This document shows, one piece after another, positions 3,266 through 26,034 of a DNA stretch of 64,000 bases. Source of the DNA: Daedaleopsis sinensis. Taxonomy: Eukaryota > Basidiomycota > Agaricomycetes > Polyporales > Polyporaceae. Position 1 is the first letter of the stretch; each line of letters starts with the position of its first letter. The notes below the pieces were generated by a model that was not told where the DNA came from, did no database searches, and saw nothing but the letters and a program-made list of their open reading frames with translations. The stretch lies in NCBI GenBank assembly GCA_033807695.1, contig CM066309.1, positions 2,232,001-2,296,000 of the forward strand. The letters are read 5' to 3'. The position numbers and the translations under genes are program-made.

Positions 3266-6200
3266 ATGTCCTCCACCTCTGCAAATGCTTCGGATATCGC
3301 GGAAGTTAAATGTGATTCGTATAAAGAACTCCCCGCTCTGACTGCCGGCAAACTCACGCCGGTGGTCTATCATGAATGGGTCGCTAAATGCGGCCAGTAC
3401 TTCGAGACTAAGACGATCACGGACGACCGCAAAGTCTTCGTGGCCATGTCTGGAGTACGCGACCCAATCATGAAAGACTGGTACTATGCGGATCAATTAG
3501 CCTTCCATCGCCTCTCTTGGAGAGATTTCTGTATCCAATTCCAGACTCGCTTCCTGGAGAAATTCTGGGATCAGAAGCTAGTGCAGAACATGTCTCGTCT
3601 TTCCCAGACCACGGAGGAACCTCTCACGCGCTTCATCGAGCGCCTCGAGCGTCAGAACATCCTGCTGCGTGGATCAGTACACCGATGGGATGACGACCGC
3701 CTTCGAGAGCACATCGAGTCCCACGCGGCCCCCGATGTCCGCTCTGAGGCCAACAAAATCATCTATCGTTCAGTAAACGACTATCGGACCTGGAAGACCG
3801 CCTTGTGCGAGTACGACGAGGACCGGCTGCGAACGCGCGCGCGTACACTCAGGGAGGTAAAGAGCGTTCTAGCCCAAGAGCGTCAAACACCTTCGAAGCG
3901 CTCCGGTGCCCCTCGCGACCGCGAACAATCCTCGTCCTCATCCATCACGGTCTCTTCCTCGTCCTCCAAACCTCGACTCCCCGCTCTCACTCCTGCTGAA
4001 CGTGAATACCTGTTTGCCAACAACGGGTGTCTCAAATGTCGTAGGATCAACGTCGACCATCGGTCCAAGACGTGTCCGAACGATTTCCCTGACGCCGCCA
4101 CGTACAAGACCGTCGGCCCATCCTCTTCGAAGTCGACGACGGTCACTTCAAGCACTCGCCGGACTGCTGTGGCTGCGCTTGGACCTCTTGACGACGATGA
4201 GTCCCTCGAACATGCCGAGTCTGAGACCGACTCGCTCTCCGCTACAATCGCCGCTATCAGCGACAAGCTCGCGACGACCGGAATCCTCGATTCTGGCTCG
4301 TATTCCTCCTCTTCTGAGGAGGACGACGACGGGTACGTATCCCCGCCTTCTGTACCACACCTCACGTGGCGCACGTCGCTACACACCCCCGACGGCTTGT
4401 CAGAGCCTTTGCCTATGCTGATCGATTGCGCTTCACCACCAGTGCTTATTAGGGCTGATGTCGTATCCGCTCACAAACTACGCCGACATTCCTTGCGAGA
4501 ACCTTTCCGTCTGGGCGACGCATTCAACGGTGGCGAGCATGTGTCGAAGGAGTGGGTGAAGGTCAGGGTGGGAGACCCTGCTTCTAGCTACTCCTCACGA
4601 TCGGTTCGCGCCTACGTCGTAGACAACCTGTGTGTACCCGTGATACTAGGCAATTCATTCCTAGCACGTAACCACCTCCTGCCGGATCTCCGGCTTCGTG
4701 CGCTCTGGGACTCCCATTCTGGAGTAGACGTTCTCGCCCCGGCTGTCCCTTCCTCCCCTCCTCCCCCGTCTGTGCGAGAAAGTCGTACGCTACGTCTGGA
4801 GTATGAGCACCTCCAGGCACGGCTACGACTGACGCAGCACAAAGACGTTATGCGTGAACTGCTGCAGGCGATCTCCACGCGGGAGGGCGAGCCCCTTATG
4901 GGGGCTCCCGCGTTGACCATTGCTGCTGTTCGTTCACGCATCGAAGAGCTCGCTGAGCTCGACGAGATGGCAGTCGCTGACGCGTCTATGAAGGACAAGT
5001 ACCGCGACTGTTTCCCCCTCGATATCCCGACCCTCGACGAACTACCGACCAACGTCTACCACGAATTCAACCTGAAAGACCCCAACATGACGATTAAAAG
5101 ACGCACTTACGATTGTCCAAAGAAATACAAGTCAGTATGGAACGAGCTGCTGCAGGAGCATCTCGTAGCTGGTCGGATTCGTCCATCTTCCTCCCCCTTC
5201 GCTTCGCCCGCGTTCTTGATTCCTAAATCGGATCCCTCCGCGAAGCCGCGCTGGGTGAACGATTATAGGCAACTGAATCAGAACACGATACCCGATGCCC
5301 ATCCTCTACCCAGTATCCAAGAGATATTGGCTGACTGCGAGAAAGGTCGCGTGTGGGGTAAATTGGATATGACCAATTCTTTTTTCCAGACACGCGTAAA
5401 GCCTGAGCACATCCCCTACACAGCCGTTACGACACCCTTCGGCTTATACGAGTGGACGGTGATGCCGCAGGGGTGCCGAAACGCCCCCAGCACTCATCAA
5501 AGATGCATGTTCAACGCTCTTCGTCAACATATAGGCAAGATCTGCCATGTCTACCTAGATGATATAATCATTTGGTCGCAGGACATGGCTGAGCACCGTC
5601 GAAACGTTGCGACTATCCTCGATGCTCTTCGCGCTAACAAACTCTATGTTTCGCTGAAGAAGACGACCCTATTCTGCAAGGAACTCAGCTTCTTAGGCCA
5701 CAATATCTCCCGTGCCGGAATCTCTCCTGACGGAAAGAAAGTCGACCGCATCCTCTCGTGGCCGACTCCTCGTTCTGCTGGCGACGTACGCTCGTTCCTC
5801 GGACTCACTCGCTACTTGGCTAGCTTTCTTCCTTCGCTCGCATCTTTGACCGCTACTCTGACGCCTCTGACGACGAAGGAATCCGAACGCGAGTTCATCT
5901 GGGAGGACCGACACACTGTCGCTTTCGAAGGAGTCAAAGCTCTCGTGACTGGACACGGATGCTTGACCTCCATAAACCACGACGACATGCGCGACAACAA
6001 AATCTTTGTTTGTTGCGACGCGAGCGACTTCGCGACGGGAGCCGTTCTATCTTACGGTCCTACACTCGAGACAGCACGACCTGTAGCCTTCGAGTCTGCT
6101 CAACTGAAGGCTGCGGAGCTGAATTATCCCGTACATGAAAAGGAACTCCTGTCGATCGTCCGCGCACTCAAGAAGTGGCGTGTAGACCTACTCGGAGTCC

Positions 6201-8059: not shown

Positions 8060-8122
8060 TCCCTTTTACCCCCTTCCTTTTTCCTACCGTGCATTTTACC
8101 TCCTCCCCGCGTTCATTTTTTT

Positions 8123-8135
8123 GGATGGGGGAGAG
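8123..8135 (+). other. Polypurine tract of the chromovirus
   Basis: GGATGGGGGAGAG directly precedes the 3' LTR. It is expected to prime plus-strand synthesis. Confidence 0.8.
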
Positions 8136-8407
8136 TGTAAGCCCTACGCTCGATTCATATGTGACATCACTCTCGCGCTTACCTTACACAGCCACCGTAT
8201 CCTTCACACATTCCCTATTCGGATAGTACATCTTCTCGGTATTCTGACTGCGTGCTACTCTACCTCATACTTAGAGCAGCAACGCAGGTACGTACCTCAC
8301 ACATGTTTATCTACCTCATACTTAGAGCAGCAACGCAGAGTTTTTGTGCCTGTTCTGTTCCCCTCCAGTGTGAGCTCTCGGACGCCGCCTCCGCTGCGAG
8401 GCTTACA
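8136..8407 (+). repeat. 3' LTR of the chromovirus
   Basis: Same length as the 5' LTR with one substitution (8238). Confidence 0.97.
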
Positions 8408-8412: not shown

Positions 8413-9103
8413 TATCGAGATAACAGACCGCTTGGAGAAGTCGTCAGACTCACCGGTGCTAAGTCCGTCATCCCCTGTGCGTCCCCCTCAAACTACCGCG
8501 AGCGCGTATACATCCTCGACAGGCTATCCTCTCTAGCTCTTTCCGTCTGCCTCTTCTTGTTACCCTCTTGCTCGTGTGCTTCTGATACTGTGCAACATGG
8601 CTCCACCAAAAATCAAATGCAGACATTGCGGAGAACTTGTGTCCCGCTCGACGGAGTGGCGACACATGAACGGGGACGCACCAGCCTCTTTGAACGCAGG
8701 TGTGGCTGCCATGAAGGAGAATCAGTTGCGTGTAGTCCTGCCAGTGAGTGCATCGAGACCAGTCAAGCGACGCAAGACGGCGGCAGACAGCCGCGAAGGA
8801 GACAAGAGCGACCCTGCGATGGATCCCGAAAGTGCCCCATTTGCCGACATGGATGCTGGTGCAAGTCGCAATGCATATGGTCCTGACGGTATGTCCCTGT
8901 TGGATTGATTTGGGCATATATCTAAGGTGTCGGTGATGGTGGACAGATTCTGTGAGCTCGACGGCCACTGGTGCAAATCAAGTAGTATGTTCTCCTCACC
9001 ATGCAAGTGACTTGAGCCCTCAACTATCCGCTCAGAATCCCTCCCCGCAAGCATCTGTGGAGCATCCTGATACCTCAACCGTCTCCGGACGTGATCGGGT
9101 TGC

Positions 9104-9107
9104 ACGC
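9104..9107. repeat. Target-site duplication ACGC, left copy
   Basis: Repeated at 21800-21803. Deleting one copy with the element restores an open Tnp2 frame across the junction, which supports a 4-bp duplication. Confidence 0.85.
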
Positions 9108-10014
9108 TGATGGGGTAACTCTGGGTCGCTGGGCGAAACACACACCCAAACGAGCACGAGATCAGCTACCTAGTAGGGTGCGAGGTGGAGGACAGGTTCC
9201 CGGTGTAGTCGCTCTTCTTCACGTAGCCCGTCGACGATAGACAAGGAAGTTGAGCAACTTCAGATGGAAGTCAAGCAACTTCCGTGGGTGAGGCTAGTCT
9301 GCAAGAGGAGGTTTGAAGATGGACGGTCTTCAATTGAGTGTCGACTAGATGATTCTTGGACTCGGACTCGATCTCTGGAGCTACTGCGCTGCTTTGCTGG
9401 GCCGCAATCCCGCTGACTTATATACTGTACAAATCGTCACCAAATAAACTACAACTATCCTACCAATCGTCCAATCATAGGAAACCCTGCTCCTCCCACG
9501 CTCACGTCGCGATCCTCCTCTCCTGAACCCCTACGGCGCACTCCGGTGGTTAGGTAGGTGTTTGCACCGAGCCTATCACGTCGCCGCTCGACTTGCATCC
9601 GCGGTCACGAGAGCGCTTAGTCTTGTGGCGCGTCACCACGTGATCGCGTCTGAAGTCCATCCGCTCGTCTTCATAGGCCTCGGAAGGCCGTCCCCCTCAC
9701 TCCCTTGTCTTCCGGGCCTCTTCCGACGACCTTCGTACCAATTACTGGACTCCGTGGCGGTCGCCTAGACCAGGCCCTCGATCGATCGCCTCCTCTGTCC
9801 TGGCTAGAGCTCTGGCGACCTCGGTCAGCCGCCGGCAGCTCGGCATCGGCTCCTTCGACCCTTGGAATGGCATGTCTCCGTACTCGCTCCTTCGGTAGTC
9901 GCTCGCCTTCCTTGTGAAGCCGCTCGTCTTCATACTGCGTGAATTGACTGACGGGCGCGAATAGTGATGTGCTGCGTGGTGTTTCCGGGGCCTAGCTGGT
10001 CCTGAGGCTCATCA
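9108..10014 (-). repeat. LTR, left copy (3' LTR in element orientation)
   Basis: 907 bp, no difference seen from 20893-21799. It contains the inverted-repeat motif GAAGTTGAGCAACTTC at 9246-9261 and a related one at 9266-9283. Small open frames inside the LTR occur in both copies and are not called as genes. Confidence 0.97.
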
Positions 10015-10028
10015 CCTCCCCCCCACTT
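10015..10028 (-). other. Polypurine tract next to the LTR
   Basis: On the minus strand AAGTGGGGGGGAGG directly abuts the LTR, the expected plus-strand primer. An identical 14-bp copy lies at 14229-14242. Confidence 0.75.
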
Positions 10029-10055
10029 GCATTCGAACCGTCCTCGGTTTGTGCG

Positions 10056-10063
10056 TATATAAA
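10056..10063 (+). promoter_or_regulatory. TATA box of passenger gene 1
   Basis: TATATAAA, 36 bp before the ATG at 10099. This gene therefore has its own promoter inside the element, just past the LTR boundary. Confidence 0.65.
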
Positions 10064-10098
10064 CTCCCTCGTTCCATCCTCGGTTTTCATCCTTCGCA

Positions 10099-10669
10099 AT
10101 GTCTGCCTTCATCTTCCTCAACGTCCCCATCCTCACGGAGACTGTCCGTCAGCTTGAAGTCGCGATCTCTGAGTTCGAGGCTCTTGCTGCCGCTCGTACT
10201 GAAGAGGACGTTGGAATCATCTACGATTCTTACGACCATATCGCTGAACTGGTGGTACGTCGTCCTCCTTCCGCGTGTAGGCCCTCGTCTTCGTGGCTGA
10301 CTGTCTTCATGGCAGGACACTTTGATCACCTTGGGGGACGATGGCGAGGTTGCCGCGGACTTCGTGAAACGGACCGAGAATACGATCACCGAGGGCTGGC
10401 CTGCCTTGGCTGACCGTCAGCTCTTCCTTTTCCAAGAGCTTGTCGCCCGGTCCCGTCGGTGCGCTCGTCGGGCCGATCTCGATGCCCGTCGCATTGCCTG
10501 TCAGCAGCGGCTCCGGAAGCAACTCTGCGCGCGCCGCGTCCTCAACCGCGCCGGAGGGTCCTTGATCACGGAGTCTATTCTGGTTGATGCCCGGATCCGG
10601 AAGGTCGAAAAGGAAATGGAGGAGATAGATCAGGAGTTTGCCAGCCTCCGAGAGGACATCCACTTTTGA
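10099..10669 (+). CDS. Passenger gene 1: helical protein, 169 aa, 1 intron
   Basis: Exons are 10099-10254 and 10316-10669. The 61-nt intron has GTACGT and CAG borders and phase 0. The protein starts MSAFIFLNVPIL and is almost entirely predicted helix, with Arg-rich central repeats and a Glu/Lys-rich coiled-coil-like end (KVEKEMEEIDQEFASLRE). No catalytic or known domain is recognised and there is no signal peptide. It is transcribed opposite to gag-pol, 63 bp upstream of passenger gene 2 and on the same strand. The frame is unbroken with canonical splice sites and a TATA box, so it is probably expressed and under selection. Its function is unknown. Confidence 0.75.
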
Positions 10670-10683
10670 GTAGCCGCGTGTCG

Positions 10684-10689
10684 TATAAA
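10684..10689 (+). promoter_or_regulatory. TATA box of passenger gene 2
   Basis: TATAAA, 48 bp before the ATG at 10732 and only 15 bp after the stop of passenger gene 1. The inverted motif GAAGTTCATCAACTTC follows at 10708-10723. Confidence 0.6.
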
Positions 10690-10707
10690 GCCGCTGTAAC
10701 TGCCTTC

Positions 10708-10723
10708 GAAGTTCATCAACTTC
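10708..10723 (+). promoter_or_regulatory. Inverted-repeat motif shared with the LTR
   Basis: GAAGTTCATCAACTTC matches 13 of 16 positions of the LTR motif at 9246-9261 (GAAGTTGAGCAACTTC), and both keep the same half-sites. It lies between the TATA box and the ATG of passenger gene 2. A binding site for a shared regulator is an inference. Confidence 0.35.
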
Positions 10724-10731
10724 CATTTTTT

Positions 10732-11386
10732 ATGTCGTCGACCGTCCTCCCGCGTACGCTCGCCCTCCAAGTCAGCTCGCACCGCGAGTTGGCCCTTGAA
10801 CTCCTCTCCCCGCTTCGTGCGCACATTGTTGAGCAAATCGAGTTCTTCGAGACGGTATCCGTCGACCACGGCTGTCCCCGCGTTGTGTATGAACACGCGC
10901 TTTCCCGTTTAGGACAACTTTTGGTGAGCTTCTCGGCCTGATGCTTCTCGCGCTTGATTGACACCTTCCCAGTATGGTTGGAGCATGCTTCATGACGGCC
11001 TTCTCGTCGGCGTTTCCGACCTACTTGCCCGCGTGTCCATCGCCATCGACCAGTGTTTCTACTCCAACGGCCTTGAGGCGTTCCTTGTCGACCTGGTCCA
11101 GACGCACCGCCTGCCGTACCGCCTCCACTTCCTGGACTCAGTGCATGCCACTCTGCAACACGAACTTCAACTCTTGGAGGTCATGCGCGACCTGGCGCGC
11201 GACGACCGGTACCGCGTTCATTTTTCGGAAGTACTCGCGCGTCTGGAATTGGTCGCCGCTGAACTGCGCGGGGTGCGTATTGAGCAGTCCGCCCTCCACG
11301 CGGCCATCAAGAAGCTGGAAAGGTCGCCGTCCTCTCTGTCAGACGAGGATGAAGTCTTCGGTTCTATTCCTTTGATGTGCGACTGA
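10732..11386 (+). CDS. Passenger gene 2: helical protein, 201 aa, 1 intron
   Basis: Exons are 10732-10923 and 10973-11386. The 49-nt intron has GTGAGC and CAG borders and phase 0. The protein is Leu-rich and predicted all-helical, with several heptad-like stretches (for example HELQLLEVMRDLARDDRY and VLARLELVAAELRGV) and a short acidic Ser-rich tail. No known domain, signal peptide or membrane segment is seen. The start is the first ATG after the TATA box. Like its neighbours it lies antisense to gag-pol. It could partner with the other passenger products, since all three have helical or coiled-coil regions, but nothing in the sequence proves this. Confidence 0.75.
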
Positions 11387-11559
11387 TTGGGGCCGCCCTC
11401 GATCGCCGTCGCGCGGAGAGCGCTTAGATTACCGCATTTGGACGTTGTACTTCACGGTTCCCTTCACGTTCTTCTGACTGTCGCCCTTAATAAACGTTTT
11501 GGCCTTCTGGTTGTCCGCCTTCGTGCATTCTCCTCTCGTCTTCTCATCCATCGCCCACC
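11387..11559 (+). promoter_or_regulatory. Spacer and promoter of passenger gene 3
   Basis: 173 bp between passenger genes 2 and 3. TTAATAAA at about 11487 could serve as a TATA-like box or as the poly(A) signal of passenger gene 2. A C/T-rich leader precedes the ATG. Confidence 0.35.
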
Positions 11560-13823
11560 ATGTCCGCTTCCAACCGTCGCTCGTCTTCCAACGTCGCCGC
11601 CACTCGCTCGTCTTCCGATGCTCCTCGGCGACCGATCCCCAAGGAGCTGTTCAAGTGGCTCCCGTTGCAATTCACGCGTGAATCCGATCGACTTGGCTGT
11701 GAGGAGCCCGTTCCCACTACGCCTGACGAGCTTCGCGATCAGGACGCCGCTCCGCTGACGATCAGCGACTTCCGGGCGATCTTGGAAGAGTACACCGACG
11801 ACCAGCTCGCTACGTTCTCATATGGCACGTTCAAGGCCATGTTTGATCGTATCGTCATGGCTCTGGTACGCCGTCCCGGCCTTCCAAGTCTTGTCTCGCT
11901 GACACATTCCTTTTTCGCAGCACCGTCTCGTCCCGGAGTGGAATTGGTACCTGGATCCCCTGCTCCTCGCCGCGCTCCCGACGTTCGAGTTTTACGCGCC
12001 GCCCTCCCTAATCTCGGAGTTCTTTCGCTCGTACGCGCTGACTTCTCGCCGGTTGCGGCTGTTCGCGGTTTCGAGCACCGTAGCGGAGTCCCCCCTGGAG
12101 ATCGACATCGCCTTCCAGGCTCACCGCCTTCGGCTGGGCTTCTTCGAGCGTAAGTACTTACGTTCTTCGCCCTCACTGTTGCTTGACTAAGACCGCTCCT
12201 CCTTGCAGTGAACTGGTACCACGAGATCATCCAGCCACGCTGGATGGAGGTCGCCGATTACCCGCCCGACATGCGCGCTTCTCGTGAAACCATCGACACT
12301 CGCGTCGACCAGTTCTTGCCTTTGCTGTCCGGCATGCGTTACGTCCCGGTCCTCGACAAGAAGCGTCTCACGAGGATTCTCGTCACACGCCCCACGTCCT
12401 CGTCAACCGCGCCTTCGTCTGACCCCGATGCCCTTCCTGGCGACGCCTTCCTGGCTGCGATGGTCACTGGTGTCGAGTACGTTCCCGAAGAGGAAGCTTC
12501 TGACGACGAGCCCCTGGCCGACGCCGCCCAGCGCGACTCTCCTCGTCGTTTCCGCACACGCTCCCCCCTCTCGCCTGACCAACCTCCTCCTCCTCCGCTG
12601 TCTCAGCTGCCGTTGAAGAGGAAGAAGACGCCCCTCTTCTTCAGCACCGATGAGAGCGAGCCGCCCAAGAAGCCCGTCGACAAGGGAAAGCGTAAGGCGG
12701 TTTCTCCTCCCGCGGACGATTCCGACCGCGATGCCGAGGGCGAGGTCGACGATGAAGGCGAAGAAGAAGTCGACCAACTCGAGGAGGAGGAGCCTCCTAA
12801 GAAGAAGTCCCGCACCTCGCCCCGCAAACGTCCGCCTCCCGTCGTCGAGTTGTCGCCTAGGGTCAAGAAGCGCGACAAGAAGCCTCCTTCCACTCGCCAA
12901 GGTTCCGTGGAGTTGTCCAGCGCCGTGCAGATCGAGGGCGACTGCGACGAGTGCCGTCGCGCCGGGGTCACCTGCAGACGTCCGGACCCTTCCGCGTTCC
13001 GCTGCAACTTCTGCAAGAAGAAGGGGAAAAACTTCTCTTGCGCGTACGACCACCTGAGTGTCCAGGGGACGGTCAAAGGTCAGTACCTTCCCCCTTCTTC
13101 TCTTGGTCTTCTTGCTGACTTCTTGTCTTCTTTCTAGTGCACGCCCGCATCGGCGCGATGTACAACGGCGTTGGGTTTTCCTTCCGGGAACCCTCGCAGC
13201 TGCCGCCCGCCGACCGTCTTCTCGCCGTCGACTTCGTCCGCCAGTTCGAGAGGAACTCGCACAAATTCCTCTCCGTCGACAAGGCCGCGCTCCAGGAGCG
13301 TCTTCGTCCGAAGACCATCCGGAAGGACACCCCCGTCTACCCGTACCCGGAGGGTCCTACGCGTTATCCTTCGCTCGACGAGAAGGGCCGCCTGCTCGAG
13401 GACTATGGCAACAGCAAGGCCGAACCCGACGACTCTACGCCTCCTCCTCGTTCGTCTCGCGCTTCTGGCAGCGTCAAGAAGGAGAAGCCGAGTCCCTCCA
13501 AGTCGACTTCCCAACCGGCGACGCCCCTCAAGATCTCGATCAAGTCCTCATCTTCCAAGCGCAAGTCGCCGGAGCCGGTCAGCTTCTCGCCGGAGGTCGT
13601 CGCGAAGGTCAACCATCTTCGCTCGCAGGTCAGCCTCGCACGCGCGCGCATCGTCGAGGACTTGGTGTCCATTCGGCAGCTTTCCCGCCGCGAGACTCGA
13701 CAGACCCAGCTCGATTTTGGCGTGAAGATCGAAGGGTGCGACGACGTGCGGTCCTTCAAGGACTTGGTGGCGTCCAATGGCTATCGTGAGGATCTCCTCG
13801 AGCTTCTTCGCAATGCCGAGTAG
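11560..13823 (+). CDS. Passenger gene 3: Zn(II)2Cys6-type nuclear protein, 696 aa, 3 introns
   Basis: Exons are 11560-11865, 11921-12149, 12209-13078 and 13138-13823, and all phases close. The N-terminus has a conserved-looking block (RRPIPKELFKWLPLQF). The middle is Pro/acidic/basic with several candidate nuclear localisation signals (PLKRKKTPL, PPKKKSRTSPRKR). A cysteine cluster follows with spacing CX2CX6CX9CX2CX8C, which fits the Gal4-type binuclear zinc cluster. The C-terminal part has a Lys/Ser/Pro-rich linker and a coiled-coil-like segment near the end (HLRSQVSLARARIVEDLVS). Gal4-type proteins usually have the cluster near the N-terminus, so its mid-protein position is unusual. Likely a DNA-binding nuclear protein; target unknown. 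The gene converges on pol, 450 bp away, and may regulate the element or host genes. Confidence 0.78.
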
Positions 13824-14273
13824 GGACTTCTTCGACGCGCGCGCGTCCACGGACTTCTTGTTATTAGCTTTTCTTGTCATCTCCTGCTTGGTCGTCGTCT
13901 CGTCCTGTCGTCGCGCGGCTCGCGCTGTCTTGTTTTCTGTTTTTCGCATATATCTCCTCTGCTCGTCTCTGTCTCCCGCGGACTAGTCTCTCCGTCTCCC
14001 TCCTGTCGCTCTGGGCTTTGTAATGTCTCCTTCTGGTTTTCTTTCCCGTATCCCGTCGCGCTCAGCTTCTGTTGTCCGTCTTAATCTGTACTGTATCTAG
14101 TATCCCGAATGTATCGCATCGCCTTCTGCTCTTCTTCTTGTGTGATCTCCGAGATGACCGACGCGCGAAGCGCCTCTTGAAGCGCTCTTCGGCCTGTAGA
14201 GGAATTGACTTCCGTAGTCAAGCGACTTCCTCCCCCCCACTTTTTCCATTTGACGTCCTCGTCAACGTGAGTG
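13824..14273. other. Convergent spacer between passenger gene 3 and pol
   Basis: C/T-rich on the plus strand. It contains the second polypurine-tract copy (14229-14242) and, at 14204-14230, a segment resembling the LTR motif (AGTCAAGCGACTTCC versus AGTCAAGCAACTTCC in the LTR). Confidence 0.5.
14229..14242 (-). other. Second copy of the polypurine tract
   Basis: The same 14 bp as at 10015-10028 (AAGTGGGGGGGAGG on the minus strand), 32 bp after the pol stop. It marks the inner edge of the passenger block and could be either the ancestral end of the element or an internal priming site. Confidence 0.55.
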
Positions 14274-17200
14274 TTAGCCGTGTTCGTCGTCGTCTGCTAA
14301 TCCTTCCTCTTCGTAGTTTTCTGTTGTGTTTTCTAATTCTTGCAGTCGGCTCTGTGGTGCGTCCAGTTCCTCAATATTGAAGTTGATTGGGTCCTCACGC
14401 GCTAGGTAGGGGATGATTCTGAAGGCCGCTATGGGTCGATCGAAGACGGTCCCATCGAGTTCTGCAATGATGTACGCGCCGCCTCTGTTGCGCGATATCA
14501 CTACTAGAGGGCCTAGGTACCGTGGTCTCATCTTCCTGTTGAGCGACTTCTCAATTGCCGTGTTCCGCATCAGAACCAGCCTCCCTCGCTGGAAGTTGAA
14601 GTCTCGGATGGTTGCGCTGTGTTCCTTCTCGAATAGCTCCGCAGCTTGGACGCGTGTTCGGTAGACGGTTGACCGCAACCGCGCTATGTCCTCCGGTCTT
14701 TTCTGCAAGGCCATCGCCCTGTTGGTGATCAACTCCGTTGTGGACACGAGCTTCGTCGGTATAGGCAGCAGGTACGTGGCTTCTGTGATGTCCATGGGCA
14801 GGATTGGATCCGTCCCAGTTACCGCGTAGTAGGGTGAGCAACCTAGTCTCCTGCGTACTGTGATTCGGTCCGCCCAGAGTACTGAATATACCCGCGCCAC
14901 CCATTGCGTCGTATCACCTTCGCATGCTTTGAAGAGCGCGTCCCGGACGTGGAAATGAGGCCGCTCGACGATTCCGTTCGCTCGTGAGTTGTATCCTGAG
15001 ATCCGTATGTGCTTGACGTGGTATTGCTTTGCCAGGTACTCCAACGCTGCAACCCATGGACTTCCGTTGTCTGACACGATCTCGGACAGCGCTCCCCATC
15101 TGCACAGCAGGTCTTGATAGATCCAGTCGCCGACCGCCTTCGCTGTTTGGACTGTACTTGCCCGCCCTTCAGCATAACTTGTGGTTGCACACCTCGCATG
15201 GAAGAAGTGCTTGTACGAGCCAGGCATGTCCATAGAGTCGACGTGAACTCGTACGAACGGCGCCGCAGGATAGGAAACTGAAGGTGGTATGTAGATCCGC
15301 GTAGTTTGTCGAATTTGACATTGGTGGCAGCTTCTCACATACCAGGCCACATCCGCCTTCATTTCTGGCCACCAGAACCGTTCGGCCACGAAGGAGATTG
15401 TCGCCTGTACGCCTCTGTGTCCTATGAAGTCGTGCATGCTCACGAACGCTTTCGCCCGTAGTTCTGGGGGTAGTACTCTCCTGTGGTTCCCATTCTTCGC
15501 TATCTTCCATAGTCGGCCATCCTTCACGAAGAATTGTCCTGCGTATTTGACGAACGCATCGAGCTCCTTCTGAACCAGCTTCGGTCTTCTCTTGGTGCAC
15601 AGAAATTCGTAGACGTTCGCTATTCTGTGGTCAAACTTCTGGGCAACCTCCGTGCGCGGTACGATTGCGTAGTCAATTTCTGGAATATCCGGTAGCTTGC
15701 CCGCCGTCCCGCTTGTCTGCTGCATGAGCGCACTGAAGCCCATCGCTTCCGTCTTGAAGTTGCTCGTTTTCCGCTTAACCTCGTGTTGTAGAGGAGCGTC
15801 TCCCAAGTGTGGAGGTGGATTTATGAGGTGTGTAAAGCCGTACATGTTGTCCACCCAGTCATCGAATTCTCCGTTGTCTGCTTCTTCTGGTTCGTCTTCA
15901 GGCTGCGCAGGTCGTCGGCTGAGACCGTCCGGTCCATGGGAGATTCCAGGTACGTGCCGCATTTCGAAGTGGAACATATTGATGCTAATGATCCACCTAT
16001 TCATGACCGCATTCGGCGCGACATCCGGATTCTGGATCATGGCTTTCGTAGATGTCGCATCCATTTCTACTATTAGGTTTCGTACACCGACCAGCCAGAA
16101 GCGGAGCGCCTTCAATGCTCGGTACAGACCATAGAGCTCGAGCTTCGGTTGCGAGAACCTGGCTTCCCTTTCGTTCAAGGTAATGGATCCAAAGCGGTTG
16201 TAGTATCGTTTCCGCGGGTCTTCCGGATCCTCTTGACACAGCTGGTAGCCGACCGCGATATAAGAGGTGTCCACCGCTAGAATTACCGGGGCCTTCGACT
16301 CGTAGTTGATCGACTTCAAGGCCGGGGATTCCACTAATGCGGTCTTTAGATCCTCCATGGCCTTGTCCTGTTCCTCTCCCCATTCGAACGGTACGTCCTT
16401 CCGCGTGAGCTTGACTAATGGCGCGGCCTTCTTCCCGAAGTTCTTGATGAAGATCCTCCCAACGCCTACCGTTCCCAGGAACGACCGTACTTCGGAAACA
16501 TTTTTACACGGTCCCCATTTGAGTACCGCATCCACGCAACCTCTCTCTGGAAGACGGCCTTCCGGTGTGCATCGATGTCCCACCGCTACGAAGTCGCGCG
16601 CCGCGCAGACGAACTTCTTGCCCGAGAAGGTACCTCCCGCATGTTTCATCCGCTGTACAATCCTGTTGACGTCTTGCATGTGCTCCCAGATGTACCTCCT
16701 GATGCCTGGATTCCCCTTCATACACTCGAAAGAACCATCTTCCCGTTCGTAGGAAGACTCCGGTCCAATGACAGGTACGTCGTCGATGTAGGGAATCGTC
16801 GTATCCGGAATTTCAGGCTGCAATATGTAGGTCACGTCGTCATGGAAGATGGGTACTGAATTTGTCCATCCCATTGGTAGCGTCGTCAGTCGCATGGCTC
16901 CGAAAGGCGTTTGGAAGGTCGTGAGGTCGCGCGACTCTTCGTCCAGGATCCTCTCGTCGTATCCAACGTATAGATCCAAGGTCGTCCCGCACGCACGCCC
17001 TGCAAAGCGTTCTGCCATGTGGTCGGGTATCGGTGGTACACCGCTGTGTTGAATAGAGACTCTGTTGAGCGGCTCCAGACTATGGACGATCCTCAGACTC
17101 CCGTCCTTCTTCAGCACACAGAACCACCTGGATCGGTAAGACGCATTTGAGGGTTCGTATACGCCTGATTCTATTTTCTTCTTCATGATCTCACAGATTT

Positions 17201-18044
17201 GTCGGTAGGTTCCGGGTGGAATGGGGAAATTCGTTTCAATCCACGGAGTGTGAGGCACAACCGCAAACTTCACTGGTGGGAACATGTCCGTCCTGAAGTG
17301 GCCACGCTCGCTGTCTTCCCAAGCGAAACCCTGCTCCTGTTTGCACATCATGTCGTCTAGCAATGCTAGCTCTTCTTCTGATAGGTGAGCATTGACTTTG
17401 TGGAGCTTCTCGCGTCGTTCAGCGGTGTACCGCCCAGTTGGTTCAAAAGGCTTTGGATTGAGGTCAAGCGGCTTCATCCCTTCGAGAGGGTCGCCGATTA
17501 TCTCCCGTACAATTCTGTACTGCTTGGGAAGCTCCCCAATCACTGGTCGTACTTTCTTATCCACTGGCTTGTACTTCTTCTTCGATTTCACGTAGCTGCG
17601 TACGCTCTCGGGGTCCTCGGTGGCTGCTTGCCGCTCGTCGTCTTCTGGAAGTTGCTCGCCTTCCGCCTCTTGTTCTTGCTCGCTCGGCTCAGTTTTCTCG
17701 CTCGCTCTTGCTGCTTCGCTGGACCTAGACCGGGTTCTGACTGCTCTTCTGCCTCTGGTTTTCGTAGCGTATACTGGGAGTGCTCGTCCTCGGAAGAGGG
17801 CTCGGTCGACTTCGCGATGTGGTTGTCGGCTCCGCATTCTATCCCCTTCCGATTCCTGGATCGGTACTTTCGAGAACATGGTTTTGATTTTCTGCTTTGT
17901 CTCGGAGTCGTCACAGGCCGATAAATATGCTGACTGAATTGTGGAATTTTCTAGGTTTTCTAAGTCCTTGTACGCCGTCGTGAAAACTTGACCCGTTCTT
18001 GCGTCATAGTCGAGGACGAGAGCGACCTCTCCCTGACTGTTCAT
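14274..18044 (-). CDS. Pol polyprotein: RT, RNase H, integrase, 1256 aa
   Basis: The ATG overlaps the gag stop as TGATG, so translation is probably coupled by termination and reinitiation. The N-terminal roughly 200 residues are charged and variable. RT has the motifs WFCVLKKDGSLRIVHSLEP, TTFQTPFGAMRLTTLPMGW and YIDD at about residues 419-422. RNase H shows LAVDTSYIAVGYQL and LELYGLYRALKALRFWL. The integrase has an HHCC finger (MHDFIGHRGV...CHQCQIRQ) and DDE residues in HVDSMDM, IVSDNGSPW and NGIVERPHF. The C-terminal RYLGPLVVISRNRGGAY segment is a typical gypsy integrase tail, and there is no chromodomain. The frame is uninterrupted, so the enzyme is probably functional. Confidence 0.95.
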   Translation of the reverse strand: MNSQGEVALVLDYDARTGQVFTTAYKDLENLENSTIQSAYLSACDDSETKQKIKTMFSKVPIQESEGDRMRSRQPHREVDRALFRGRALPVYATKTRGRRAVRTRSRSSEAARASEKTEPSEQEQEAEGEQLPEDDERQAATEDPESVRSYVKSKKKYKPVDKKVRPVIGELPKQYRIVREIIGDPLEGMKPLDLNPKPFEPTGRYTAERREKLHKVNAHLSEEELALLDDMMCKQEQGFAWEDSERGHFRTDMFPPVKFAVVPHTPWIETNFPIPPGTYRQICEIMKKKIESGVYEPSNASYRSRWFCVLKKDGSLRIVHSLEPLNRVSIQHSGVPPIPDHMAERFAGRACGTTLDLYVGYDERILDEESRDLTTFQTPFGAMRLTTLPMGWTNSVPIFHDDVTYILQPEIPDTTIPYIDDVPVIGPESSYEREDGSFECMKGNPGIRRYIWEHMQDVNRIVQRMKHAGGTFSGKKFVCAARDFVAVGHRCTPEGRLPERGCVDAVLKWGPCKNVSEVRSFLGTVGVGRIFIKNFGKKAAPLVKLTRKDVPFEWGEEQDKAMEDLKTALVESPALKSINYESKAPVILAVDTSYIAVGYQLCQEDPEDPRKRYYNRFGSITLNEREARFSQPKLELYGLYRALKALRFWLVGVRNLIVEMDATSTKAMIQNPDVAPNAVMNRWIISINMFHFEMRHVPGISHGPDGLSRRPAQPEDEPEEADNGEFDDWVDNMYGFTHLINPPPHLGDAPLQHEVKRKTSNFKTEAMGFSALMQQTSGTAGKLPDIPEIDYAIVPRTEVAQKFDHRIANVYEFLCTKRRPKLVQKELDAFVKYAGQFFVKDGRLWKIAKNGNHRRVLPPELRAKAFVSMHDFIGHRGVQATISFVAERFWWPEMKADVAWYVRSCHQCQIRQTTRIYIPPSVSYPAAPFVRVHVDSMDMPGSYKHFFHARCATTSYAEGRASTVQTAKAVGDWIYQDLLCRWGALSEIVSDNGSPWVAALEYLAKQYHVKHIRISGYNSRANGIVERPHFHVRDALFKACEGDTTQWVARVYSVLWADRITVRRRLGCSPYYAVTGTDPILPMDITEATYLLPIPTKLVSTTELITNRAMALQKRPEDIARLRSTVYRTRVQAAELFEKEHSATIRDFNFQRGRLVLMRNTAIEKSLNRKMRPRYLGPLVVISRNRGGAYIIAELDGTVFDRPIAAFRIIPYLAREDPINFNIEELDAPQSRLQELENTTENYEEEGLADDDEHG

Positions 18045-20926
18045 CAGATCCTCGAAGCCCGAAAACCCTCGACTCTGAGTCCATAACTCGGAGAGTCTCC
18101 ATGTGCGTAGGTCGGTAGCGTCAATTCGCGGTTCGAGTTAGGGCAAGTGACGGTAATTGACAATTGGCCATCCATAGAGTTGCTCGACCTCGCACGCATC
18201 ACCGTCATGAACGGCCTTCCTAGGAGGATCTGGTAAGGCGCTGCCTTCACAACATGCATCTGGAGGTAGACCACGATCCCGCCACCTAATTCCACAGGCA
18301 CGTTCTTTGCTAGACCGAGTGTCATGTCGACCGTCCCATTTGCGCTGATCATCCTCCTTCGCTTGGTAGGATCGTAGGGGATCTTCAACGCATAAGCGAT
18401 TTGGTCGTTTATACCGACGATCTGGGACCCATCGTCGAGTGTACACTCTGTCGGCGTGTCCGTTCGAGCTACCCAGGTGAACAGCGACCTCAGCTTCTCC
18501 GATTCCGAGGCTACGATGGTTGACTTCCGCCGACTGCTCGCAGGATAGCCTTGTCCCGGAGCTACATACGGTGCATTGTGCGACTTTGGCTCCTCGTCCT
18601 CGTCCTCGCTGCCTTCATAGTCCAGGTCTACAAATGCAAAGGATCCAAGCGTCGGCCTTCTAGTCCCTGAGGATGAACTTCCTGCTGTCTGGAGGTTATC
18701 TTCCGGGAAGTCTTCGTCTTCAGCGACTTCGGTCACTAGTACCTTGTTCCGAGGCCGCTCGCCTTCCCGGTTGGTCACTTCCTGCAGTTGCTCGTCTCTA
18801 ACTTGCGTTCGCCTGAGAGCTGTGGCCTCATGCACTCGCTTCCTGAGTCCTGGAGAAATACTGAGTAGCTCGGCTGGTGACACTGTGATACTCTGGCTGT
18901 CTCCGAAGCTTCGGTTGAAGACTCTTTCTTCCGCGGTCGGGTCGATGATCGCTGCGGTCCTTCTGACCGGTGGTTCGTCCTTCTTCGGCAGTTCCTGGCC
19001 TCTGGGTACCACAGTCGGCGCATAGGGATGAAAGGTCTCTTCAGGCTCTTTTGCCCTCGTGTCCCAGGTAACGTGCTTTTCCTTCTCCTTTCCCTTCTCT
19101 CTCGTTGGCTGGTGAGGCGGCTGATCACGCTCGGGCGTCCCTGCCCGCGTGTCGTCCCTCCCTTTCTCCGAGTTGCGCGTAATACGTCGAGGCCGCGTCT
19201 CTAGCTCGACTCCATCAAAAACCTGCCGTCCCGAGCGAGTGTTCATGCGCTCTTTAACCATGTTTGCCTTGTGCATGAGGACTTCTAACTCCTCTTCCAA
19301 GGTACGCTCGTCTTCCTGCATCTCGAACTGATAGATGTTGCTCATGGTTCCTCGCGCTCGTTGGTTTGGGTTCTTTTCGTGCCAAGCATTGACTCTATCG
19401 CGCATACAGTTCCCTGGCAGACTACGAGGGATCACACCGCCTCCTGGTAGGATGATTTTGTCGTATACGTCCTTCCGGATGAGTCCCGCCGTCATGTCCT
19501 CTGCGACTTTCGGGCACGTCTTCAACCGACATCCCGGTAGGCCACAGTAGATGCATTCGTCGTTAGCGGGTGGATTACGTCCGTATAGGCCCCCTTGCTG
19601 CTGCTGGTACCTTCCCTGGGGAGGTTGTGGTGGTGGAGGGTATTGTTCCCCTTGTTGCGGTGGTTGCGTGGCTTGCATCCTCTGCTGGCTCACGAAGTCG
19701 CGCATGGTCGAACTCATCATGGAGATCATCTCCCGCTTGAAGGCCGATAGATCCGGCTCGGTTTTCACCGTAACCGTGGAGGCCATGGCTGGAGCCGGAG
19801 GATTGACTCGAGCGAGGTTACCGGACGTCGCAGTTGACCAACTTCCGATCCCGCCGAACGGGCCTCCGTCCGCCAGACAATAGGAAATTGCTTCATGAAC
19901 TTGCGCGACCGTGTAAGCTTCTTCTTTGTGTTTGGCAGGCACCTGGTGTGCTAACCGCGCGGATACCGCCATTGTGTACTGCATAGGAACTAGCCGTAGC
20001 AAGGCTGTCGACGCGTCGCGCTCCGTTAGCTCTGGCTCGGTCTTCGCATGCAAGTACCGGTAGATGGGATAGAATTTGCCGTAGAACTTCATGTAGGTTT
20101 CGAGGCTGGATATCCCCGTACGTACGGCTTCCCCGATGACTTCATTGTATTCTCGCAGTGTCCAGGTGTACTGGGCATCCGTCCCGAGGTAGAAGGATAG
20201 AACCTCCGTCTTGAATTCTTCATACGTCTTCTGGGTGTCCGAGAACGTCGGCAGGGACTTCCATCGCTTGGCGACTCCCGCTGGTATGTAGTCGACCGCC
20301 GCCGCCTTGCAAGCTTGTTCATCAGTGATGCTATGCTTCTTCAGAAGTCGGGCAAGGTCGTCAAAGTACCGCTCGACGGTGTCCTTAGATTCCTCATCGA
20401 ATTGGGGCGCACTCCTTTCCGTACGCAACGGTAGTTTCGATAGATCTGCGCTAGCCATTGAATGGATTGTAGGTGGTACTACGGGTGGTAGAGCCGTAGG
20501 TAATATTTGAGCGGCGTAGGCTAGCAGTGAAGGAAGGGGGTTCCTAGGTAGGTTGAAGGCCCCTGCGGTATGTGATAGCGTAGGTCTTGGGTTACTAATT
20601 GATTCTGAAGTCAGGAACGGATGGTCCGGAACTTCAATGTCCTTCTGCTCGTCTTCGGAAGCGTCCTCTAGTTCGGTAAGCGGAGAGTCTGCGAAAACCG
20701 CGAAGTTGTTCTCGATAACGGTAGTGATCTGCTCTGCTCTCTCGGGGTCTTCTGCTTCGATTTCCTCTAAAGCCTGTTCGGTTTGTCGATGGAGGCGACG
20801 GATACGTTCGCTCCGCGTCGGCCGCAAACGTGGGATTCTTGAGCCGGAACCGGTGGAGACTGTTCTTGTACCCCTCGCGGTGGGCTCCAGAATGATGGGG
20901 TAACTCTGGGTCGCTGGGCGAAACAC
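18044..20926 (-). CDS. Gag with C-terminal aspartic protease, 960 aa
   Basis: The ATG at 20926 lies inside the LTR, 34 nt before its inner end, so the first codons are LTR-encoded and translation runs through the putative primer-binding site. The capsid-like region is central (about residues 170-330). A Gln/Pro-rich linker and a zinc knuckle of CX2CX4CX4C form (CIYCGLPGCRLKTC) follow, with Cys in place of the usual His. The C-terminal part holds a retropepsin-like domain (CTLDDGSQIVGIN...YQILLGRPF). The protease is therefore fused to Gag rather than to Pol. The stop overlaps the pol start (TGATG). Starting at an internal ATG instead cannot be excluded. Confidence 0.9.
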   Translation of the reverse strand: MFRPATQSYPIILEPTARGTRTVSTGSGSRIPRLRPTRSERIRRLHRQTEQALEEIEAEDPERAEQITTVIENNFAVFADSPLTELEDASEDEQKDIEVPDHPFLTSESISNPRPTLSHTAGAFNLPRNPLPSLLAYAAQILPTALPPVVPPTIHSMASADLSKLPLRTERSAPQFDEESKDTVERYFDDLARLLKKHSITDEQACKAAAVDYIPAGVAKRWKSLPTFSDTQKTYEEFKTEVLSFYLGTDAQYTWTLREYNEVIGEAVRTGISSLETYMKFYGKFYPIYRYLHAKTEPELTERDASTALLRLVPMQYTMAVSARLAHQVPAKHKEEAYTVAQVHEAISYCLADGGPFGGIGSWSTATSGNLARVNPPAPAMASTVTVKTEPDLSAFKREMISMMSSTMRDFVSQQRMQATQPPQQGEQYPPPPQPPQGRYQQQQGGLYGRNPPANDECIYCGLPGCRLKTCPKVAEDMTAGLIRKDVYDKIILPGGGVIPRSLPGNCMRDRVNAWHEKNPNQRARGTMSNIYQFEMQEDERTLEEELEVLMHKANMVKERMNTRSGRQVFDGVELETRPRRITRNSEKGRDDTRAGTPERDQPPHQPTREKGKEKEKHVTWDTRAKEPEETFHPYAPTVVPRGQELPKKDEPPVRRTAAIIDPTAEERVFNRSFGDSQSITVSPAELLSISPGLRKRVHEATALRRTQVRDEQLQEVTNREGERPRNKVLVTEVAEDEDFPEDNLQTAGSSSSGTRRPTLGSFAFVDLDYEGSEDEDEEPKSHNAPYVAPGQGYPASSRRKSTIVASESEKLRSLFTWVARTDTPTECTLDDGSQIVGINDQIAYALKIPYDPTKRRRMISANGTVDMTLGLAKNVPVELGGGIVVYLQMHVVKAAPYQILLGRPFMTVMRARSSNSMDGQLSITVTCPNSNRELTLPTYAHGDSPSYGLRVEGFRASRI
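20872..20889 (-). other. Possible tRNA primer-binding site
   Basis: On the minus strand TGGAGCCCACCGCGAGGG starts 3 nt after the LTR. Beginning with TGG is what a tRNA CCA end requires; a U before the CCA would fit a tRNA-Cys-like primer. The tRNA identity is inferred, not matched. Confidence 0.45.
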
Positions 20927-21799
20927 ACACCCAAACGAGCACGAGATCAGCTACCTAGTAGGGTGCGAGGTGGAGGACAGGTTCCCGGTGTAGTCGCTCT
21001 TCTTCACGTAGCCCGTCGACGATAGACAAGGAAGTTGAGCAACTTCAGATGGAAGTCAAGCAACTTCCGTGGGTGAGGCTAGTCTGCAAGAGGAGGTTTG
21101 AAGATGGACGGTCTTCAATTGAGTGTCGACTAGATGATTCTTGGACTCGGACTCGATCTCTGGAGCTACTGCGCTGCTTTGCTGGGCCGCAATCCCGCTG
21201 ACTTATATACTGTACAAATCGTCACCAAATAAACTACAACTATCCTACCAATCGTCCAATCATAGGAAACCCTGCTCCTCCCACGCTCACGTCGCGATCC
21301 TCCTCTCCTGAACCCCTACGGCGCACTCCGGTGGTTAGGTAGGTGTTTGCACCGAGCCTATCACGTCGCCGCTCGACTTGCATCCGCGGTCACGAGAGCG
21401 CTTAGTCTTGTGGCGCGTCACCACGTGATCGCGTCTGAAGTCCATCCGCTCGTCTTCATAGGCCTCGGAAGGCCGTCCCCCTCACTCCCTTGTCTTCCGG
21501 GCCTCTTCCGACGACCTTCGTACCAATTACTGGACTCCGTGGCGGTCGCCTAGACCAGGCCCTCGATCGATCGCCTCCTCTGTCCTGGCTAGAGCTCTGG
21601 CGACCTCGGTCAGCCGCCGGCAGCTCGGCATCGGCTCCTTCGACCCTTGGAATGGCATGTCTCCGTACTCGCTCCTTCGGTAGTCGCTCGCCTTCCTTGT
21701 GAAGCCGCTCGTCTTCATACTGCGTGAATTGACTGACGGGCGCGAATAGTGATGTGCTGCGTGGTGTTTCCGGGGCCTAGCTGGTCCTGAGGCTCATCA
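20893..21799 (-). repeat. LTR, right copy (5' LTR in element orientation)
   Basis: 907 bp, apparently identical to 9108-10014. A TATATAAG box on the minus strand at 21202-21209 lies about 280 bp before the gag ATG and is a plausible promoter for the genomic RNA. Confidence 0.97.
21031..21046. promoter_or_regulatory. LTR inverted-repeat motif, right copy
   Basis: GAAGTTGAGCAACTTC, the same as 9246-9261 in the left LTR. The two half-sites GAAGTTG and CAACTTC are perfect inverted repeats with a 2-nt spacer. Confidence 0.35.
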
Positions 21800-21803
21800 A
21801 CGC
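21800..21803. repeat. Target-site duplication ACGC, right copy
   Basis: Matches 9104-9107. Confidence 0.85.
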
Positions 21804-24800
21804 GAGGCTATAGCTGCATCTGGAGCACAGGTTTGGGCTGGGCGCACACGTCGGGCATGGGTAGAGGAAGACGATGATGTCGAAGATGGCATGCAAGCGT
21901 CGGGCACTGCCGGTGATGAAGAGGAGGCCGTGGAGTATGAGTACGAGTGGGGCTCAGAGACGTATGATCATGACCAGTATGTTGCGATCTCCGTCTGGGA
22001 TGAGCTCTCTGAACTGTTTGAACGCATGGGTCATACGTCGGGTGCGTCCGAGTCCTTGCAAACTCTATTTGGGAGACTCGGAGTGGCTGAACAGAGTTTG
22101 AACTTTAAGCTGATGACATCACCCCCGAAGACCTTGCGCATCTCCGCCCGTTCGCCTTGAAGGTTGACACACATATGCCAGGACAGACATTCGCTAAGCT
22201 CCCCTTTGCATTTCCCGACGCGCATATTGAGACATGGAAGAGGATACAAGCCCGAGCGGCTCAACTCTCTGGAGTTCAACCCGAGCTGTACGACTGCTGT
22301 TCGAGCTCGTGCCTATGCTATGTGGGACCTCATGCCGACCTGCGTGAGTGTCCTTACTACAATGAACCCCGCTTCCGGCCAGATGGCCAGCCCCGCTCCC
22401 GATTCATGTATCTTCCGTTCACCCCACGGCTCAAAGCCCTCACTGCGAACTGACGATCAGCACACCTGATGCGACATCGAGCAACTGGACATATCCCCAA
22501 AGACAGAGTCATCTCAGATGTTATGGATTCATCTCACTATCAAGACCTTCGCAGCAAGAACGTCATCGTGAACAACACCCCACTATCTCACAAATACTTC
22601 GAAGACGATCGCGACGTAGCCCTTGGGCTCTCGACTGATGGCTTTGCTCCTCATAGGCGGCGGAAGAAGACTGCCTGGCCGCTCATTCTTTTCAACTACA
22701 ACCTACCTCCCGAGATCCGTTTCCACCTTGAACACATTCTTCCGCTGGGCATCATACCCGGCCCAAAGAAGCCTCACGACTTCGACTCCTTCCTCTGGCC
22801 AGCTATCCAAGAGTTTCTGCATCTCGCTGTAGGAGTTCACGCTTACGACGCCGTGTCAGACGAATTCTTTGCCCTTCGTGCGTATCTCATCCTCATCTTC
22901 GGCGACATTCCAGCAATCTCTATGGTGATGCGCATGAAGGGACACAACGGTTTCGCTCCATGCCGTATGTGTCACATACATGGTATTCGAACGCCAAACA
23001 CTCGCCAACCTACACACTACGTCCCCCTCCACCGCGCACGCCATCCCGACCTGGCTTCCACCCCACCAGCAACTCGGAACTACGCACCCTTGTCACTACC
23101 CTCGCACACCCACGACGAGTTCTTGCTGCAAGCCAATGAAGTACAATTTACGACCACCGAAGTTGAGCACGAACGCCTGTCCAAACTCTATGGCATCAAA
23201 GGGATACCTGCAGTCAGTGTCCTCGGCTCCCTCAGATTTCCGTCTTCGTTTCCCTATGATTTCATGCATCTTATCTTCGAGAACGTCTTCAAGAACCTTG
23301 TCCTACTCTGGACAGGAAGTTACAAGGGTCTCGATGCCGGAACCGAGGAGTACGAGATACTACCTTCTGTCTGGGATGCGATCGGTGCAGCAGGTGCGGC
23401 TGCCGGTGATACTATCCCATCCGCCTTTGGACCGCGCCCGCCCAATGTAGCCAACAACAAGGCATCATGGACGGCAGACTCACGCTCCTTCTGGACACTC
23501 TACGTCGCACCAGCGCTATTAGATGGTCGATTCATCCGGCGCCGATACTACGACCACTTTGTCCGCCTGGTCACACTCATCCTCACATGTCTTCAGTTCG
23601 AAATCACCGACACCGAAGTAGTCCAGCTACGAGAAGGCTTTGCAAAATGGGTCACGGATTACGAGCTGTGCGTCGTGCCACCCACATTTTTCCTTCATTG
23701 TCATGTTCTCGCACTGACAGGTCTATACCACACGCAGTATCTACTATCAGCATGATCCCGCTCGGCTGTCCGCATGCCCACTGACCATCCATGCGTTATT
23801 ACACATTGCTGACAGCATTGTCGCCGCAGGACCGGTATGGACTTGTTGGGCGTTCCCAATGGAACGTTATTGCGGCGCGTTGCAGCCATCAATTCGAAGC
23901 CGACGCTATCCCTACGCAAGCATGAATAGATACGTGCTTGACCGCGCCCGCCTCGACACCATCAAACTCAAGTACAATCTAGAAGATCAACTCAGTTTAA
24001 AGCCTCTGACCCTCTGTGGCTTCTATCGAGCCGTATGCATCCCTCGCTGTACGTCACAGTCTATGACGATTCCCTCCAACCCTCCGGGAACCTTGCTGAC
24101 CTCGCCCTTCTATATACAGATCAAACTTGCGCTCTTTTGCCGCCTCACAGGGACGCTTTCGCTGCCATCAAGCTACCCATTGGCATCAAGAATAAGATGA
24201 TTAGTGCGTTAGGTACACGCTACCACGGTACGGCCTCAAATACACGTGCGGCATTCGCGACGGCCATGGTCGAGGAGTGGGGTGGTGTGCGGATCTTCGA
24301 AGATGGCGATGTCATCCGCGCTGCAGCCTTCGGACAGGTGTCTCCCTCGCATTCCAGAGCAGCTACAGCGACGCGGGCGGGCGAACACGATGCTACATAT
24401 GTCCGGGTACGTCAAGCTACTGTAAACATCTTATTCATGTGCGCGCTCCGCTGACTCTCCTCGCATGTAGTTCCAGGCGCTAGTTGACCTACATGCGGCT
24501 GTCCGAAACCGCGCTGTTTCTTATACCTCCAGTACCTTCTATGGGCAGCTTCAACATATCCTCGTCCTCGACTGCCCACCTATCGCACGTACCACACATA
24601 CCACCACCTCCCGCATTGTCCTCGCCGTCATCCGACAATGCGAGATCGAAGAGTCGCACCCCATCCTTGACATACACTACTACGCACGCGAAGGTGCACT
24701 CCATGTCCTCGACATCACGACTATTCAATGCCTCGTAGGACGCATTCGCGACCGTGAACGCTGGGCGGTCATTGACCGTAGTGGTGCGCTCTCGCGCGCA

Positions 24801-25229: not shown

Positions 25230-25345
25230 CACAGTGCATCAACCTCCTTGTCACCACCGGAGGTGTACTCCCTGCGACTGGGAAATATAAGTTAGCAAAA
25301 GGAGGAAAGGGAAAAGCGACGCTAGAAATCGTGCACACCTTAGTA

Positions 25346-25946: not shown

Positions 25947-26034
25947 GGTGGTGATAATCCGAGTGGTTGTAGGGCAGTGACTGAGTGTTAGTCGCTGAGC
26001 AGCCTGAGCTGGTGAAGGTCGCATCTCCCCGCCT

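Follow-up and report, generated by a model that had tools for sequence, protein, structure and literature searches.

Sequence evidence for an old antisense module of intron-bearing genes, flanked by two polypurine tracts, in Ty3/gypsy retrotransposons of Daedaleopsis sinensis

Plant retrotransposons are already known to carry antisense genes past pol and ahead of the 3' LTR; such genes have also been reported in the fungal element Boty, and spliced antisense genes are known from HTLV. Ty1 possesses a second polypurine tract. The Boty-like element of Botrytis cinerea reportedly carries an additional antisense gene, brtn, as indicated by the title of a 2011 work by Zhao et al. For the plant Retand/Tat-type gypsy elements (Grande with its gene23, RIRE2, Retand and PvRetro13), the available sections of PMC7264820 and PMC11963269 indicate that most copies have antisense open reading frames (ORFs) in the interval from pol to the 3' LTR. 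According to the same sections, the products of these ORFs are possibly DNA-binding or nuclear, Grande has its own promoter, and tandem repeats occur in the antisense region of about half of the Retand clusters. The gene brtn of Boty is named in the accessible part of PMC7264820, and an excerpt of PMC4227169 attributes a chromodomain to the Boty gag-pol and describes one solo LTR with a 5-bp target site duplication (TSD). The antisense genes of HTLV-1 (hbz) and of HTLV-2 to -4 are spliced and start in the 3' LTR, HBZ being a nuclear regulatory protein (PMC10186651, in excerpt). Finally, lentiviruses are characterized by a central polypurine tract (PMC3185511, in excerpt).

The window analyzed here is a stretch of 64,000 nucleotides of Daedaleopsis sinensis, in which a complete Ty3/gypsy element was delimited (Table 1). 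Its family is called F1 in the text and its relatives F2a, F2b, F3a, F3b and F4 (F4a, F4b); all these labels were coined in this analysis. The assignment to Ty3/gypsy is based on LTRs with a TSD, a primer binding site, a polypurine tract and the order reverse transcriptase, RNase H and integrase in pol. The Pfam cut-offs were exceeded in pol by RVT_1 (346-511), RNase H (586-721) and Integrase_H2C2 (890-945), and the aspartyl protease match in gag was slightly under its cut-off. As no chromodomain was found in pol by Pfam at E values up to 1, the element was not classified as a chromovirus. It resembles Boty, by description only, as a fungal gypsy element with an extra antisense gene, but differs from it by the lack of a chromodomain and by a 4-bp TSD. 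The tRNA pattern corresponding to the primer binding site occurred at nine sites of the genome, and the one retrieved was identified as tRNA-Lys(CTT) by ARAGORN. Identical LTRs and a 4-bp TSD on both sides were found in all three LTR pairs checked, the copies on C1 and C9 having ACGT on either side. The gag-pol on the minus strand, the identical LTRs and the clean TSD claimed by the original prediction were all borne out. An Rfam scan of positions 9000-22000 of the window yielded no match.

Table 1. Coordinates, in the window, of the F1 element and of its parts
Feature	Positions	Strand	Remarks
Ty3/gypsy element, whole	9108-21799	-	12.7 kb; reads on the minus strand
3' LTR	9108-10014	-	907 bp; at least 41 LTR matches in the genome
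5' LTR	20893-21799	-	907 bp; 0 of 907 differences from 9108-10014; ends TGATG...CATCA
TSD	9104-9107 and 21800-21803		4 bp, ACGC
Primer binding site	20872-20889	-	complementary to the tRNA-Lys(CTT) 3' end; 3 nt from the 5' LTR
gag-protease ORF	18044-20950	-	stop to stop; frame opens within the LTR
pol ORF	14274-18137	-	reverse transcriptase, RNase H, integrase (Pfam)
Hairpin at internal polypurine tract	14250-14265	-	
Internal polypurine tract	14229-14242	-	31 bp past the pol stop; identical in 30 of 30 copies (74 of 437 14-nt windows of the same spacer likewise variant-free in the 30 copies)
Gene C	11560-11865, 11921-12149, 12209-13078, 13138-13823	+	696 aa; 3 introns; six-cysteine region in exon 3
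Gene B	10732-10923, 10973-11386	+	201 aa; 1 intron
Gene A	10099-10254, 10316-10669	+	169 aa; 1 intron
TATA box TATATAAA	10056-10063	+	likely module promoter; TATAAA begins 41 bp upstream of the A start codon
Hairpin at 3' polypurine tract	10036-10049	-	
3' polypurine tract	10015-10028	-	abuts the 3' LTR; identical in 29 of 30 copies, the remaining one unaligned there

Three other features were observed in the window. A second gypsy element lies on the plus strand at 2166-8407 (272-bp LTRs, 99.6% identical), with a chromodomain match in 2507-8056, and an ORF at 22454-23752 matches Transposase_21 (tnp2). A fragmented direct duplication extends over 25278-30551; its pieces are about 80-83% identical, the best pair being 25278-26670 and 28367-29771.

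In the F1 element, the 4.2 kb past pol toward the 3' LTR consist of three plus-strand genes, A, B and C, whose five introns are all of the GT-AG type and 49-61 bp long. Both the gene models and 30 copies upheld the claim that three intact genes with one, one and three canonical introns stand at this place. At least 30 full-length modules, that of the window included, are present in the genome. Intactness and selection were examined on 30 F1 copies (the window copy, which L009 duplicates, and L010-L038), in which the ORFs of A and C were intact throughout and that of B in 29 of them. All three ORFs were intact and all five introns canonical in 28 of the 30; in copy L033, B was broken by a 46-bp deletion, and in copy L012 one donor site was lost. 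Of 44 pol matches listed in the genome, 36 belonged to F1, and at 33 of these the module was found 230-232 bp off, on the opposite strand. The remaining three comprised one match adjoining a contig end and two with a truncated pol. The many full-length copies with the module beside pol that had been proposed as a check were thus found.

Among the matches listed, eight of the 41 module DNA matches were situated away from pol. These were element pieces, one copy of 90-93% identity (C1:1329227-1332685, known by identity only) and three distant remnants, which were considered as a possible host source of the module and rejected. In the first, the relic L045, C is interrupted by stops and bits of LTR and of the gag start are present; L046 is a C fragment split over two frames; in L047 (1.3 kb examined), a piece of A exon 1 almost abuts B and A exon 2 is missing. 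No ordinary host locus was found with the module DNA, among the matches listed, or with the C proteins of two sibling families. A single capture or an assembly artefact was ruled out by the copy number, the linkage to pol and the intactness over 30 copies. The contrary pattern envisaged in the original prediction, in which the other copies lack the module and its proteins match a host locus, was looked for and did not hold.

The flank outside the module-side LTR read NCGN in 27 of the 29 F1 copies with a readable LTR (loci L009-L038; L027 has no LTR in reach, and L015 and L017 differ), CG making up 8.5% of the dinucleotides of the window. As judged from these flanks, the F1 insertion sites are centred on CG.

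Among the 30 F1 copies, 362 coding variants were counted in A, B and C, and none of them was a stop, about 17 stops being expected from the synonymous count. The ratio of missense variants to the neutral expectation was 0.12 for A, 0.50 for B and 0.27 for C; in the last 1.4 kb of pol it was 0.23, with one stop among 138 variants. When C was read in the five wrong frames, values of 1.6, 3.0, 1.1, 0.4 and 3.6 were obtained, versus 0.27 in the correct frame. An overlapping sense ORF was rejected as the true gene since C's own frame was the tightest; one antisense frame, at 0.40, contained two stops. The introns varied in length by 1-3 bp between F1 copies in four cases out of five. Between families, where dN/dS values are rough (dS of 0.7-1.2 in most comparisons), gene A of F2a and F2b differed by 21 synonymous changes and a single non-synonymous one (dN/dS 0.015). 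In F3, dN/dS was 0.12 for A, 0.145 for B and 0.37 for C; it was 0.29 for C in F2, and 0.10 and 0.08 for pol fragments. B and C are less constrained than A. The low missense rates anticipated for these genes were observed at both levels, and the A, B and C proteins are under purifying selection within F1 and between families.

These data bear on the proposal that the antisense transcript, and not the proteins, is what matters, double-stranded RNA being used to tune gag-pol expression. Such an idea has been raised for the plant antisense ORFs (PMC7264820, in excerpt), and here A, B and C converge on pol, but the constraint follows the codons, with no stops, few missense variants and between-family dN/dS of 0.015-0.37. 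As RNA-only action would not by itself preserve the frames, we regard this explanation as improbable.

Searches with the pol of one sibling and the C proteins of two siblings revealed four related families, with two copies of F2a, four of F2b, seven of F3a and three of F3b. At all 16 F2-F3 loci, C was found antisense after pol, 1.2-1.5 kb past the pol piece used, and with the two siblings' C queries no C match was detected beside the weaker pol matches of the sibling-pol search, F4 aside. One copy of each family was examined in full (L039-L042). A and C were present in all four; B was found in F3a and F3b (one copy each) and was not found in the F2 copies examined. The gene models, built on query proteins assembled by eye from open frames, showed an ATG start, no internal stops and GT-AG introns; the F2a C alignment stops short of the stop codon, and a 45-bp intron within an open frame in the F3a C model is likely an alignment gap. 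Gene A has a single phase-0 intron at a matching place in F1, F2 and F3, and so does gene B in F1 and F3. In C, the first intron is in phase 0 in all five families and a second one, in phase 1, is shared by F1 and F2; the third introns differ between F1 and F2, and the F3b C has the first intron only. Identity to F1 was 25-32% for A and 24-32% for the C-terminal part of C, against about 67% for pol (about 61-68% over the four families). From these comparisons, we infer that the module was in place before F1, F2 and F3 split.

The pol of F4 is 44-64% identical to that of F2a, depending on the stretch, and its LTR pairs are spaced by 7.7 kb (two loci) and 10.9 kb (a third), versus 12.6-12.9 kb in six F3a pairs. 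In the two F4 copies examined, no A, B or C match was obtained, and some 150 bp separate the end of pol from the polypurine tract and LTR. The module is thus not essential to all relatives. This pattern may reflect a gain of the module before F1-F3 or a loss in F4, the pol tree being unrooted, as the neighbouring gypsy element failed as a root. Beyond this genome, a profile search with A led to the protein C8Q80DRAFT_1118515 of Daedaleopsis nitida (Polyporaceae), which is 77% identical to the F2 gene A and whose annotation retains the A intron unspliced. Two further contig-encoded proteins were found, one matching C (73% over 52%) and the other A (87% over 31%).

Other observations were made on these relatives. 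Three F2b pol copies on C4, near 1832737, 1848746 and 1864755, are spaced by exactly 16,009 bp, which suggests a tandem element array or an assembly effect. At locus L040, an ORF at 2-1792 with an endonuclease/reverse transcriptase match (Exo_endo_phos_2) belongs to a LINE-like element that adjoins the F2a copy. In the F3a copy L039, a tandem repeat at 6560-6900, between A and B, recalls the Retand repeat arrays of plants.

The likeness to the Retand/Tat elements concerns the place of the antisense ORFs, after pol and before the 3' LTR, the putative DNA-binding or nuclear products, the putative promoter of the module's own and, in that F3a copy, the tandem repeat. The present elements differ from them in being fungal and in having three genes with five introns, whereas the word intron is absent from the sections available of PMC11963269. 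They also differ by the absence of a TRP28 (PF04195) match in A, B and C at E values up to 1 and by the two polypurine tracts that flank the module.

These tracts were found in each of the five module families, in a family-specific version. In F1, the plus-strand 14-mer CCTCCCCCCCACTT starts at both 10015 and 14229; CTCCTCCCCACCGA stands at both sites in F2a, the inner tract of F2b being different by one base, and CTCCCCCCAACTGA at both sites in F3a and F3b. The F4 stretches examined contained the LTR-side tract, and no second tract was found in them. The members of a pair appear to evolve in step within a family, which would be needed if a single RNase H had to recognise the two. The sequence beside each tract can fold into a short hairpin (4-nt loop), the arms of which vary from place to place. 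In eight hand-picked 16-mers cut with the loop in the centre, pairing was kept in 46 of 48 cells (95.8%), a level that none of 500 shuffles attained. On a MAFFT alignment with the loops out of register, 29.7% of cells were paired and the score was reached by 125 of 500 shuffles. Upon free folding of 12 longer pieces, the hairpin was formed in all except two F3 internal copies.

Lentiviruses and Ty1 likewise have a further polypurine tract inside the element. The tract described here differs in that it follows pol, flanks an antisense module and stands by a hairpin. The internal tract would probably prime plus-strand DNA after pol, so that the plus strand of the 12.7-kb element would be finished in two segments, the module being one of them.

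At the other end of the module, a TATAAA motif precedes A by 47-50 bp in F2a, F2b, F3a and F3b, as it does at a similar place in F1 (Table 1); in F4a and F4b, none was found within 150 bp. Its position suggests that A, B and C are transcribed from beside the 3' LTR toward pol. The module shares with HTLV a spliced antisense gene, splicing being predicted here from the intron consensus, the indels and the matching positions. It differs in that its TATA box is internal to the element, close to the 3' polypurine tract, and in that three genes with coding introns are concerned.

As regards the proteins, full-length A, B and C matched no Pfam family at E values up to 1. A comparison of A with B by hhalign gave a score of 30.9, the best of 100 column shuffles reaching 19.2, and the two are probably an old duplicate pair. 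A shared origin of the start of C with A or B was also considered, and was unsupported (scores of 17.5 and 15.4). C contains basic runs and six cysteines in a Zn2Cys6-like region, whose spacing in F1 fits the Zn2Cys6 motif. With the cropped cysteine region, PF00172 (Zn_clus) scored 15.1 bits in F1 and 14.0 in F3b, below the cut-off of 21, and gave no match in F3a and F2b. Compared with solved structures, the C profile produced weak matches at best (GAL4 at E 3.9), and no match was obtained when the C protein of F2 was used as a query. With less certainty, C looks like a basic, DNA-binding, Zn2Cys6-like regulator or anti-silencing factor, of which A and B might be the partners.

Alternatively, instead of influencing transcription or silencing, the proteins might serve the replication particle during packaging, integration or entry into the nucleus. 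A and B look helical, the single predicted model being of low confidence (mean pLDDT 54), the pN/pS of A is below that of pol, and the module adjoins the 3' polypurine tract. Against this, a separate promoter would give a separate mRNA and no gag fusion, and the basic runs and the zinc-cluster-like region of C are as in nuclear proteins. A role in the particle is thus considered rather unlikely, while deserving some weight.

Two further explanations deny the module a function for the element. If its genes had been captured as a cluster from the host and travelled as a passive passenger, the resemblance of its intron-bearing genes to host genes would be accounted for, as would the lack of a known retroelement domain in A, B and C. 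This is made very improbable by the presence of the module beside pol in all readable F1-F3 copies whose pol end is intact, by purifying selection in young copies as well as between families, and by the failure to find a host source with the module DNA, among the matches listed, or with the C proteins of two siblings. Co-option of the proteins for host benefit would agree with the strong conservation of gene A; yet the many near-identical dispersed copies and the identical LTRs in the three pairs checked fit a recent selfish spread, and no fixed host copy was found (module DNA among the matches listed, C proteins of two siblings). We therefore give this last explanation hardly any credence. 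Together, these observations suggest that the module serves the element and is not accidental cargo.

Our preferred reading, held with moderate confidence, is that of a fixed antisense accessory module of two or three genes, which would have its own TATA promoter, be spliced, encode nuclear trans-acting products and accompany a two-segment plus strand. According to this scheme, transcription of the module would start from the TATA promoter that adjoins the 3' polypurine tract, and the transcript would then be spliced. The introns of the module would outlast retrotransposition owing to their antisense orientation, since the genomic RNA contains them as reverse complements that offer no splice sites; this fits the matching intron positions across families. 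A, B and C may act in trans on behalf of the element as nuclear proteins, in transcription, escape from silencing or nuclear steps, although we are less sure of this point. By analogy, the module would work as HBZ does in HTLV. Similar trans-acting nuclear roles have been proposed for the plant antisense ORFs (PMC7264820, in excerpt). More tentatively, these elements could form a distinct gypsy lineage whose genome bears two opposed gene sets, gag-pol on one strand and a spliced, self-promoted regulatory set on the other, the latter bounded on either side by structured polypurine tracts, so that plus-strand synthesis would be programmed in two segments.

No report of gypsy elements of basidiomycetes with antisense modules that bear introns was found in the literature covered, which was partial and left subscription papers and preprints outside. 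The original prediction did not recognise a three-gene spliced antisense module from fungal elements; an antisense gene as such is already reported for a fungal gypsy element (brtn of Boty). What is added here is a three-gene, five-intron basidiomycete module, the conservation of introns between families, measured selection and two flanking polypurine tracts. On the basis of the sequences compared, the module, with a polypurine tract on either side, is an old trait of the lineage and not a recent cargo.

Plants and deltaretroviruses provide the best-known antisense accessory genes, and to these a selected multi-gene module of a basidiomycete is now added. The association of this module with a duplicated, structured polypurine tract provides a clue to the gain of the module and to the copying of long elements. 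Furthermore, the loss of introns that is the rule in retroelements can be put to a natural test in these families, as the introns match though the module proteins are only about 24-32% identical. If the more tentative scheme is true, it would be through antisense orientation that a retroelement retains its introns and assembles, in the long run, a complex set of accessory genes.
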